The notes beneath the pieces were generated by a model. That model saw only the letters and a program-made list of their open reading frames with translations, did no database searches and was not told the origin of the DNA. A program made the translations under genes and the position numbers. A DNA stretch of 64,000 nucleotides, from contig CP054189.1 of the NCBI GenBank assembly GCA_015709495.1, forward strand, positions 558,001-622,000, written 5' to 3'. The first letter of the stretch is position 1, and each line of letters starts with the position of its first letter. The DNA is from Chthonomonadaceae bacterium. Lineage in GTDB: Bacteria; Armatimonadota; Fimbriimonadia; Fimbriimonadales; Fimbriimonadaceae. Of this stretch, positions 39,297 through 42,898 are shown piece by piece.

Positions 39297-39710
39297 ATGG
39301 ATACCGAAGGGTTGGACCCAGTCCGCCGCGTTCTGCGGATAGCCCGGAGTCGCGGAATTACGGAGGTCGAGTTGGAATTCGGCGATGTCGAGTTCGAGGC
39401 TCGATTGGGTCCTTCCCGCCCTTCGAACCATCACCCGAAGAAGCAGGCGCAGTTTCAGGCTCCCGAAGCGGAACCGTCGGATGGCCGAGTGCCCCTCACG
39501 GCTCCCTGCGTCGGATTTTTCCGAGACACGAACGAAACGTTCCGCGTGGGGCTCGAAGTCGAAGAGGGGGAGATTGTCGCAGCGGTCGCGGCTCTTGGCA
39601 TCGCGAACGACGTGCCCAGCCCCTGCGGGGGAGTCCTGGAGACCGTCGCCGTCTCCCACGGAGACGCCGTGCAGTTTGGCCAGGTGCTGGCCTACATCCG
39701 TTGTGAATGA
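39297..39710 (+). CDS. AccB-like (biotin carboxyl carrier) protein without the biotin lysine
   Basis: A 137-residue AccB homologue. Residues 1-38 match the AccB N-terminal region, a charged linker follows (39-65), and 66-137 align without gaps to the biotinyl domain of E. coli AccB. In that alignment the biotinylation motif EAMKM reads AALGI (98-102), so the lysine that carries biotin is Gly101 and both flanking methionines are lost. The surrounding fold residues (VEEGE, CGGVLETVAVSHGDAVQFGQVLAYI) are kept. It heads a run with a pilin-like gene and accC. Plant BADC proteins are AccB relatives with the same loss and lower acetyl-CoA carboxylase activity; a similar role is an inference. A normal AccB must be encoded elsewhere. 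Confidence 0.88.
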   Translation: MDTEGLDPVRRVLRIARSRGITEVELEFGDVEFEARLGPSRPSNHHPKKQAQFQAPEAEPSDGRVPLTAPCVGFFRDTNETFRVGLEVEEGEIVAAVAALGIANDVPSPCGGVLETVAVSHGDAVQFGQVLAYIRCE

Positions 39711-39719
39711 GGAAGTGAA

Positions 39720-40088
39720 ATGAGGCGACAGCGCGGACAGACTTTGGTGGCGACGATGATCGTGCTCGTGATCATCTCGATCTTGGCGGTGGTGTACTTC
39801 GTCGGCTCGGGAACTGGCTCGACTTCCGCTCGCCCCGACGGCAAGGGACAAACGACGGTCGGGGCAGCGCTCATGAAAGCTCGCGACACCGAATGCAAGC
39901 AACAATTGATGCAGATTCGGCAGGCTGTCCAACTCGGTGAGACCGTCGACGGGACCTTTCCCTCGAGCATCGAAGCCATGAGACTCGGCCGCGACTTCGA
40001 AACGTGCCCCATCGGAAGCGAGCCCTACGAATATAGCTCCGAAACCGGAAAGGTCAAGTGCCCTCACCCAGGACACGGAAAGTACTGA
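39720..40088 (+). CDS. Type IV pilin-like / pseudopilin protein
   Basis: A 122-residue protein with a class III-like prepilin start: a basic tip, then G-QTLVATMIVLVIISILAVVYFV, a hydrophobic helix directly after the cleavage Gly6. The glutamate usual at position +5 is Ala, as in some minor pseudopilins. The C-terminal half (RDTECKQQLMQIRQAV, TCPIGSEPYEYSSETGKVKCPHPGHG) resembles pseudopilin tails with two or more cysteines. It is preceded by GAGGAAG and ends overlapping the accC ATG by 1 base, so a pilin-like gene is fixed inside a lipid-synthesis run. No assembly genes are nearby. Confidence 0.75.
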   Translation: MRRQRGQTLVATMIVLVIISILAVVYFVGSGTGSTSARPDGKGQTTVGAALMKARDTECKQQLMQIRQAVQLGETVDGTFPSSIEAMRLGRDFETCPIGSEPYEYSSETGKVKCPHPGHGKY

Positions 40089-41449
40089 TGTTTCAAAAGG
40101 TCTTGATCGCGAATCGGGGCGAGATCGCCTGCCGAGTCATCCGCGCATGTCGTGAGATGGGGATTCGGTCGGTCGCCATTTATTCCCAAGCGGACCAAGA
40201 CAGTCTGCATGTCCAGATCGCCGATGAGGCTATCTGCGTCGGCGCGGGAGCCAACTCCGATTCGTATCTCAACCTCGCGAACGTGCTGATGGCCGCCCAG
40301 ATATCAGGGGCCGAAGCCGTGCACCCAGGCTACGGCTACTTCAGCGAGAGGGCCTCGTTCGCCGAAGCGCTCGAGTCTCTGGGGATTACCTTCATCGGCC
40401 CCCCAGCGTCGGCGATCAACGCGATGGGAGACAAAGCGCGAGCCAAGAAGGCCGCGATCGAGTCCAACTGCCCGGTGGTTCCCGGCTCTGAAGGGCCTGT
40501 GAGCGGTGAGGGTGAGGCACTGAAGGTCGCCGATCAGATCGGATACCCGGTCCTCCTGAAGGCGGTGGCCGGCGGTGGAGGCAGGGGGATTCGAAAGGTG
40601 GGCTCGCCGGACGAATTGACCAGCGCATGGCCGACGGCCGTCGCAGAGGCGCAAGCCAGTTTCGGTTCGGGCGAAATGCTCGTCGAGAAGTTCGTCTCTT
40701 CGCCGAGGCACGTTGAGTTCCAAGTCATCGGAGACTCCCACGGCAACCTCGTGTACCTCGGCGAAAGGGAATGCTCCGTGCAGAACCTGCGCCATCAAAA
40801 GATCGTCGAGGAGGCTCCTTTTGCGGCGATGCCCCACGATCTTAGGCGAACGATGGGTGAGGCCGCAGTGCGGGTGGCGTGGTCCGTGGGCTACCAAAAC
40901 GCGGGAACGGTCGAGTTCCTCGTGGACCCAGAAGGGCAGTTCTACTTCCTCGAAATGAACACCAGGCTCCAGGTCGAGCACCCGGTCACGGAAGAGGTCA
41001 CGGGCATCGACCTGGTTCGGACGATGCTGCTTGTGGCCAGCGGTGAGCCGCTCCCTTTCCGGCAGGAGGACATTCAACTCAAAGGACATTCGATCGAGGC
41101 CCGCATCACCGCGCAGGACCCCTCGCGAGATTTCCATCCCAGCACGGGTCGCATCACCAAGTGGCTCGCGCCGGGAGGAAGGGGGGTCCGACTCGATACG
41201 CACGCCTACGCAGGGTTTACGATCTCGCCCTATTACGACCCGATGATCGCCAAGTTGATCGTCACCGACCGCGATCGTCCGGCAGCGGTCGCCAAGCTGC
41301 TCTCCGCCCTGCACGAATTCGAAGTCGAGGGCATTCGCACCAACATTCCGTTCCTTAGGGAACTCTGCGCCGACTCAAGATTCCAGTCAGGCGAGATCGA
41401 CACGGGGTTCGTCCCGGCGTTTCTCTCTGAGGTGCCTGTTGAGTCATAA
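40088..41449 (+). CDS. accC: Biotin carboxylase subunit of acetyl-CoA carboxylase
   Basis: A 453-residue ATP-grasp enzyme that carboxylates biotin on AccB. VLIANRGEIACRVIRACREMG, HPGYGYFSE, the glycine loop AVAGGGGRGIRKV, FLEMNTRLQVEHPVTE and EARITAQDP are all present. In the loop with catalytic Lys238, E. coli reads CSMQRRHQK; here it is CSVQNLRHQK, one residue longer, with the first Arg replaced. The gene has its ATG overlapping the pilin-like stop and its end overlapping nusB. AccA and AccD are not in the window. Confidence 0.95.
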   Translation: MFQKVLIANRGEIACRVIRACREMGIRSVAIYSQADQDSLHVQIADEAICVGAGANSDSYLNLANVLMAAQISGAEAVHPGYGYFSERASFAEALESLGITFIGPPASAINAMGDKARAKKAAIESNCPVVPGSEGPVSGEGEALKVADQIGYPVLLKAVAGGGGRGIRKVGSPDELTSAWPTAVAEAQASFGSGEMLVEKFVSSPRHVEFQVIGDSHGNLVYLGERECSVQNLRHQKIVEEAPFAAMPHDLRRTMGEAAVRVAWSVGYQNAGTVEFLVDPEGQFYFLEMNTRLQVEHPVTEEVTGIDLVRTMLLVASGEPLPFRQEDIQLKGHSIEARITAQDPSRDFHPSTGRITKWLAPGGRGVRLDTHAYAGFTISPYYDPMIAKLIVTDRDRPAAVAKLLSALHEFEVEGIRTNIPFLRELCADSRFQSGEIDTGFVPAFLSEVPVES

Positions 41450-42011
41450 GAGCCGCAGACAAGCTCGTCAGGCGGTGATCCAAGCGCTGTATTCGATGGA
41501 CGTGGGGCGGTGTACTTTGGACGAAGCCGCGGAGGGCGTCCGGGAGCTTCCCCAACTCGACTCCGATCTCAAGGTGTACGCGGACGATTGCTTGCGAGGC
41601 ATTTTGGCTCGGCGCGAAGAGATCGACGCCACTCTATCGAGGTTCTTGGTCGATTGGGAGTTGGGACGGCTGTCGATGACGGATCGCGCAGTCTTGGAAC
41701 TCTCCACCTATGAGCTTTTCCACCGACCTGACGTTCCTGCGATTGTGAGCGTTTCCGAGGCCGTCGAGATTGCGAAGAAGTTCGGCTCGGGGGAAAGCGG
41801 CAAGTTCGTGAACGGCGTTCTTGCGGCGGTGCTGCGCGGGCCCGCGAGATACCGGCTGGACTCCCCCGACCCCGAAGAAACCCCGGAAGAGTCGACTCCT
41901 CCAGACCCAACGGAACCCGAAGCGGAGGAGATCATGGTGGAAGAGGGCTCCGAACAGGTAAGAGATCTCGAACGAGTCTCCAAGTGGCTCATTCGCACCG
42001 AGGAATCTTGA
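41439..42011 (+). CDS. nusB: Transcription antitermination factor NusB
   Basis: A 190-residue RNA-binding helical protein of the rRNA antitermination complex. SRRQARQAVIQALYSMDVG at the N-terminus, RLSMTDRAVLELSTYELFHRPDVP and VSEAVEIAKKFGSGESGKFVNGVLAAVLR are the standard NusB blocks. After residue 140 there is an acidic Pro/Glu-rich tail of about 45 residues that is not part of the family core. The start is a TTG at 41439 overlapping accC by 11 bases. FolD follows with a 1-base overlap. Confidence 0.93.
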   Translation: MSHKSRRQARQAVIQALYSMDVGRCTLDEAAEGVRELPQLDSDLKVYADDCLRGILARREEIDATLSRFLVDWELGRLSMTDRAVLELSTYELFHRPDVPAIVSVSEAVEIAKKFGSGESGKFVNGVLAAVLRGPARYRLDSPDPEETPEESTPPDPTEPEAEEIMVEEGSEQVRDLERVSKWLIRTEES

Positions 42012-42898
42012 TGTCTGCAACTCTCATCGACGGGAAATCACTTTCCACCCAACTGCGCGCCCAGCTCGCCGAAAGGGTCAGCGCGCTGTCCGCCGCCGGA
42101 TTCCGGCCTCGACTCGAGGTCCTTGTGGCCTCTCAGGACCCGGCGAGCTTGGCCTACGTTCGCATGAAGACGAAGTGGGCGGAAGCGATGGGGATCGAGA
42201 GCGGCACGTACTCCGTCGGCGAGGCCACCCAACAGTCGGAGCTTCTGGAAAAGATCAGGGAGTGGAACGCCGACGAATCCGTCCACGGAATCCTGATTCA
42301 ACATCCATTGCCCTCCCAACTCGACGAGTCGGAGGCGCTACTCGAACTCGGGGCCGAGAAGGACGTCGACGGGATCACCCCGGAGTCGCTGGGTCGGCTG
42401 GTGGCGGGTGCGCCCGGCTTCCGTTGCGCGACCCCCCTCGGGATGATGAGGATGCTCGATGCCTATGACATCGACTGCACGGGCAGGACTGCGGTCGTGA
42501 TCGGGCGCAGCGTCATCTTGGGAAAGCCCGCCGCGCTCATGCTGCTCGAAAGGAATGCGACCGTCACCATCGCCCATAGCCGGACCCGCGACCTTCCGGA
42601 CCTCTGCCGAACTGCCGACATCCTCGTCGCTGCAGTCGGCAGACCTGAATTCGTCAAGGGCGACTGGCTGAAGCCGGGGGTCGTGGTGTTGGACGCAGGC
42701 TACAACAAGGTCGAGGGCCGCGCGACGGACGTGGGCGATGTGGAGTTCGAAACGGCGGCCGAAAGGGCTTCCTTCCTCACGCCGGTACCCGGTGGAGTGG
42801 GCCCGATGACTGTGGCGAGCCTCCTCGCCAACGTCGTCGATGCCGCCGAGGCCCGCCTCCGATCCGAGCAAGCGCGCGCAACGGCTTCGCGCTCCTAA
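42011..42898 (+). CDS. folD: Methylenetetrahydrofolate dehydrogenase / cyclohydrolase
   Basis: A 295-residue bifunctional folate enzyme interconverting methylene-, methenyl- and formyl-tetrahydrofolate. It has LEVLVASQDPASLAYVRMKTKWAEAMGI with the catalytic Lys, VHGILIQHPLPSQLD, KDVDGITPESLGRL, then the NADP site VIGRSVILGKPAALMLLERNATVTIAHS, and near the C-terminus TPVPGGVGPMTVASLL. All blocks are complete. Its ATG overlaps the nusB stop in TGATG. The gene ends 82 bp before mdh. Confidence 0.96.
   Translation: MSATLIDGKSLSTQLRAQLAERVSALSAAGFRPRLEVLVASQDPASLAYVRMKTKWAEAMGIESGTYSVGEATQQSELLEKIREWNADESVHGILIQHPLPSQLDESEALLELGAEKDVDGITPESLGRLVAGAPGFRCATPLGMMRMLDAYDIDCTGRTAVVIGRSVILGKPAALMLLERNATVTIAHSRTRDLPDLCRTADILVAAVGRPEFVKGDWLKPGVVVLDAGYNKVEGRATDVGDVEFETAAERASFLTPVPGGVGPMTVASLLANVVDAAEARLRSEQARATASRS

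Follow-up and report, generated by a model that had tools for sequence, protein, structure and literature searches.

A recurrently lysine-less AccB paralogue upstream of accC in Armatimonadota, probably a non-catalytic part of acetyl-CoA carboxylase

In a 64,000-nucleotide stretch of a Chthonomonadaceae bacterium genome (hereafter the window), the AccB-like protein encoded upstream of accC is, judging from its sequence, unable to carry biotin at the normal site, as a glycine stands in the place of the biotin-bearing lysine. The gene is neither an error, a pseudogene nor a one-off. In the phylum Armatimonadota the same paralogue, here called type B, has lost its lysine on many independent occasions, to seven different residues, a larger pattern unseen in an earlier reading of the window made from its letters alone (the sequence-only reading). 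We consider the protein probably a non-catalytic part that helps to build or control acetyl-CoA carboxylase (ACC), of a kind so far known from plants. Its gene opens a run in the order accB-prepilin-accC-nusB-folD, with ends touching or overlapping, and the features discussed below are as follows.

39297..39710, + strand: type B AccB paralogue, 137 aa (open reading frame, translation, Biotin_lipoyl match, start conserved in homologues)
39297..39407, + strand: helix-strand N-terminal module, residues 1-37, resembling the AccB N-terminus, candidate AccC-binding part (profile alignment, model)
39483..39707, + strand: biotinyl-like carrier domain, residues 63-137, with a short thumb and no lysine (Pfam, profile, model, fold match)
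39597..39599, + strand: GGC codon of Gly101 at the biotin-lysine position (sequence, invariant in alignment A1, second genome of the species)
39720..40088, + strand: prepilin-like gene with N_methyl motif (PF07963, E 4.5e-7; relatives occupy the slot phylum-wide)
40088..41449, + strand: accC, biotin carboxylase with catalytic residues present (PRK08591, E 1.2e-194)
41439..42011, + strand: nusB, overlapping the end of accC (from the open reading frame list, named by inspection; same order in relatives)
42011..42898, + strand: folD (from the open reading frame list, named by inspection; same order in relatives)

The 137-residue protein (MDTEGLDPVRRVL...VAALGIANDVPSPCGGVLE...GQVLAYIRCE) is an AccB by fold and descent, having both the biotinyl-domain fold and the AccB N-terminal module. 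Residues 77-134 match Pfam Biotin_lipoyl above the cut-off (E 4e-8), and the match to the NCBIfam BCCP equivalog TIGR00531 is weak, at 27.2 bits against a cut-off of 115.2. The AlphaFold model has a mean pLDDT of 76, with block means of 85-93 across residues 61-137, and places a helix at residues 7-18 and strands at 23-36; it matches structures of E. coli BCCP, with an rmsd of 2.1 A and a target TM of 0.79 for 1bdo and a further match to 4hr7, and that of Arabidopsis BCCP1 (9a87). Moreover, positions 3-132 of the profile built from alignment A1 align with residues 20-175 of E. coli BCCP (4hr7_B), the BCCP N-terminus included. The lysine of the EAMKM-like motif that marks a catalytic AccB is Gly101 here, the motif reading VAALGIAND where E. 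coli AccB has VEAMKMMNQ. As read from the sequence, residues 63-137 are free of lysine, which rules out biotin attachment elsewhere in the domain. The sequence-only reading had placed the frame, the codon and the AALGI substitution correctly, together with the loss of the normal biotin site. Its statement that the domain aligns to that of AccB without gaps was wrong, since the alignment is gapped at the thumb, which is about 5 residues shorter than in E. coli AccB. As to position, the gene does lie upstream of accC, as had been said, and is separated from it by the prepilin-like gene.

The downstream carboxylase is intact in its catalytic residues. Among 84 AccCs compared, the window's included, equivalents of K116, K159, E201, H209, K238, E276, E288, N290, R292 and E296 (E. 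coli numbering) occur in all, and that of R338 in 83, with a gap in the remaining one. The genome (2.9 Mb, one contig, 99.6% complete) also encodes, at about 148.4 kb, a separate AccB-type protein with the motif EAMKVFNE and a thumb, which we call type A. This rules out the window gene as the genome's only AccB and supplies the second biotinylatable copy whose presence had been raised as a check. Two Carboxyl_trans matches lie side by side at about 1535 kb and are taken to be accD and accA, and the search for biotin-ligase domains gave one. Besides these, the genome has an EAMKT carrier at 1345 kb and lipoyl E2-type proteins. Of its two biotin carboxylases, one is the window's AccC, and the other (L040:11397-13717, minus strand) adjoins an enoyl-CoA hydratase gene and by its size has no carrier domain of its own. 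An HMG-CoA lyase near the EAMKT carrier (locus L041) leads us to read this second set as one for leucine catabolism, and carboxylase, carrier and lyase together look like a split methylcrotonyl-CoA carboxylase set. Given this, and the presence of accA, accD and a biotin ligase, the EAMKVFNE protein is likely the catalytic AccB of fatty acid synthesis and would thus belong to the same enzyme as the window's AccC.

That the glycine is a sequencing or assembly error, or the gene a decaying copy, is a very improbable account, for which only the loss of the catalytic residue speaks. Another genome of the species, with 4 base differences across the gene (3 of them synonymous), has the same glycine, which excludes a sequencing error. 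In close pairs, with saturated pairs left out, Nei-Gojobori dN/dS was 0.04-0.31 in glycine lineages, 0.06 in an aspartate pair and 0.28-0.34 in an arginine family, compared with 0.08-0.28 in lysine lineages; values well below 1 rule out a pseudogene. Purifying selection thus maintains lysine-less type B much as it does lysine-bearing type B. In-gene stops are rare among relatives, and the frames are almost always open. Together with retention across the phylum, these results bear out the earlier argument against decay. Fixation of Gly101 in relatives, also proposed as a check, was found in 45/45 members read of the window's own family and almost throughout the order, and the residue is among four invariant columns of alignment A1 (21 sequences).

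Relatives were searched in 61 close genomes and in 291 genomes of the phylum, the latter set mostly metagenome-assembled, with families given as codes (f1, f2, ...) in place of names. Relatives occur in nearly all genomes of both sets, and both paralogues, type A and type B, in nearly every Armatimonadota genome searched. Type A has the lysine in all 27 proteins read and a thumb (FYRxPSPxxPPFV-like) in all rows listed. VG(I/Y)F and VEYGQPL typify type B, whose gene precedes accC in 141 of the 158 genomes read, usually in the accB-prepilin-accC-nusB-folD setting. At the biotin position, 43 of these genomes have lysine and 115 another residue (74 glycine, 25 arginine, 4 aspartate, and 3 each of threonine, asparagine, serine and histidine). 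The window's own family supplies 45 of the glycines, and leaving it out the count is 43 with lysine against 70 without. Some families have lysine only (f31-f34), others lack it throughout (f1, f2, f5, f19, f43), and a third group holds both states (f11, f12, f13, f21, f35). Of 84 type B rows, lysine-bearing or not, 56 have a short thumb spacer (at most 11 residues). Counting lysine-bearing type B separately, 20/25 have a shortened thumb, so that thumb shortening is independent of lysine loss. Not every genome depends on type B, as genome G051 of family f2 shows only a type A copy. Two small genomes of the same family and genus as each other (G029 and G158, 1.5 Mb) have no match to type A or type B AccB and may do without this route of fatty acid synthesis.

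Type A, type B and the AccBs of other phyla are each set off by a branch (support 91, 85 and 85, none starred), and type B proteins with lysine group with those that lack it, away from type A and from the other phyla (support 85). As these three groups are separated by branches, the A/B split probably predates the sampled families. The number of changes at the biotin position was then counted on trees made by a quick method, holding 84 of the 158 loci, many loci being too short for a full accC. With motif columns excluded, the accB+accC tree requires 12 changes between lysine and non-lysine and 24 in residue identity, and the accC-only tree at least 11 changes between lysine and non-lysine, of which at least 8 are unavoidable given the strongly supported branches. 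For all glycine forms together, one common origin was rejected by the AU test (p-AU 4.6e-7). Parsimony is blind to whether these changes are gains or losses of lysine. Lysine-bearing type B has a full biotinylation-type motif (IESMKLMND) and AccBs of other phyla have EAMK, which makes loss, not gain, the natural reading: type B lost its lysine repeatedly, at least 8-11 times, to seven different residues, and both paralogues were probably lysine-bearing in the common ancestor.

We think it fairly probable that the window's protein is a non-catalytic AccC-binding subunit that helps to assemble or tune the complex, with type A carrying the biotin. The AccB-like N-terminal module and the carrier-domain fold would bind AccC, letting the protein occupy some of the carrier seats of the AccC-AccB core and thereby aid core assembly and set the stoichiometry, and type A (EAMKVFNE, with a thumb) would perform carboxyl transfer. 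With catalysis secured by type A, type B would have kept its structural job and its lysine could be lost again and again. We infer AccC binding, the assembly role and the A/B division of labour from sequence comparison, drawing on the presence, in one genome, of type A, accA/accD and a biotin-ligase domain together with an intact AccC, on the place of type B by accC, on the whole-length profile alignment to E. coli BCCP, and on the contrast between type A, which keeps lysine and thumb, and type B, which loses the lysine yet stays under purifying selection. A tested precedent is plant BADC, a lysine-less BCCP relative that aids BC-BCCP assembly (PMC11926652). Consistent thumbs in type A and mostly short ones in type B fit a BADC-like arrangement, as far as the analogy reaches. 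Against an assembly role, type B is still lysine-bearing in about a quarter of the genomes read and may be catalytic there, and in several f2 genomes it stands apart from accC. Four genomes of that family (L050, L052, L284, L293) have a type B reading VLGIPNE away from accC, unlike most of the phylum.

The BADC comparison made in the sequence-only reading was a fair one, as both proteins lack the biotin motif and coexist with a BCCP that can be biotinylated; its further term, dominant-negative regulator, rests on analogy and is one of two live options, of which assembly is favoured. As an inhibitor, type B would compete with biotinylated type A for seats on AccC and lower ACC flux, perhaps in response to a signal, which we hold to be rather unlikely. 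A missing biotin site, shared AccC-side modules, co-expression with accC as expected from gene order and the reported inhibition of ACC by BADC (PMC7712654) are all compatible with such a brake, but near-universal retention regardless of lysine is more readily explained by a structural role than by a dedicated brake, and the differing site residues of many lineages share no regulatory motif there. Less probable still is a job outside ACC, in which type B might for instance act together with the adjacent prepilin-like protein, or serve the biotin ligase as decoy or sensor. The kept carrier fold and the phylum-wide presence of a prepilin-like gene between accB and accC lend it some appeal; that gene accompanies lysine-bearing type B too, its product is expected in the envelope, apart from cytosolic AccB, and the spread of residues at the site (G, R, T, D, N, S, H) speaks against a conserved contact with the ligase there.

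Assembly thus remains the favoured role, and several known systems bear on it. Plant BADC, of the plastid heteromeric ACC, has 25-30% identity to BCCP and lacks the AMKL motif (PMC11926652, PMC7712654). It was first described as an inhibitor of ACC (PMC7712654) and later as the assembly glue of the BC-BCCP subcomplex, touching the BCCP thumb and likened to 'glue' subunits of actinobacterial acyl-CoA carboxylases (PMC11926652). BADC and lysine-less type B are both BCCP relatives without the biotin lysine motif that occur beside a biotinylatable BCCP, in the case of type B presumably in the same enzyme; BADC is proposed to act through BC-BCCP binding (PMC11926652, PMC7712654), and type B would do the equivalent. 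The window's protein differs in being bacterial and encoded in an accC operon, and in having orthologues in its own phylum that still carry the lysine. These orthologues imply repeated loss inside the phylum, and an origin separate from BADC is likely, on a sequence comparison made among bacterial AccBs. The best reading, by analogy, is of a bacterial protein that would work like BADC and arose repeatedly within Armatimonadota.

With the canonical AccB (BCCP) of accBC-nusB-folD, the window's protein has the fold, the N-terminal module and the place upstream of accC in common, whereas most type B members are short-thumbed and the window's own copy lacks the biotin lysine and scores far below the BCCP equivalog cut-off. 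The small subunits of actinobacterial carboxylases are, to our knowledge, not BCCP paralogues and are part of another enzyme type. They resemble the window's protein in being non-catalytic parts of bacterial carboxylases (e.g. Thermobifida AcCCase, PMC7835884).

Beyond the phylum, a cross-species contig scan with the window protein as sole query returned no relatives. In the scan with alignment A2, among the best 80 of 183 matches, [IV]xALGLAND, the sole motif sought, matched Fimbriimonadia in every case, and the readable rows from other phyla had EAMK in every one. The literature search yielded nothing on ACC paralogues of Armatimonadota, nor on a BADC from bacteria or cyanobacteria.

A wider proposition, on which we are evenly divided, is that the whole phylum runs ACC with a catalytic and a structural carrier, the latter having lost its lysine in at least 8 lineages, and that plants separately arrived at BADC. 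If so, a carrier seat in a bacterial AccC complex can serve architecture alone, and non-catalytic BCCP paralogues are no plant peculiarity. Armatimonadota would then provide a natural series of orthologues sharing gene order (Lys, Arg, Gly, Thr, Asp, Asn, Ser, His), in which the question of whether BADC is glue or brake could be addressed in simple bacterial enzymes. For annotation, caution would be due, as 'accB beside accC' can label a protein unable to carry biotin.

A gene for an envelope-type protein is a surprising find between those of two cytosolic ACC subunits. Its relatives fill the accB-accC gap across Armatimonadota whether or not the AccB has its lysine, and the gene product follows the pattern C..NL.QIR...CP.G.EPY.Y...TG.V.CPHPGH.
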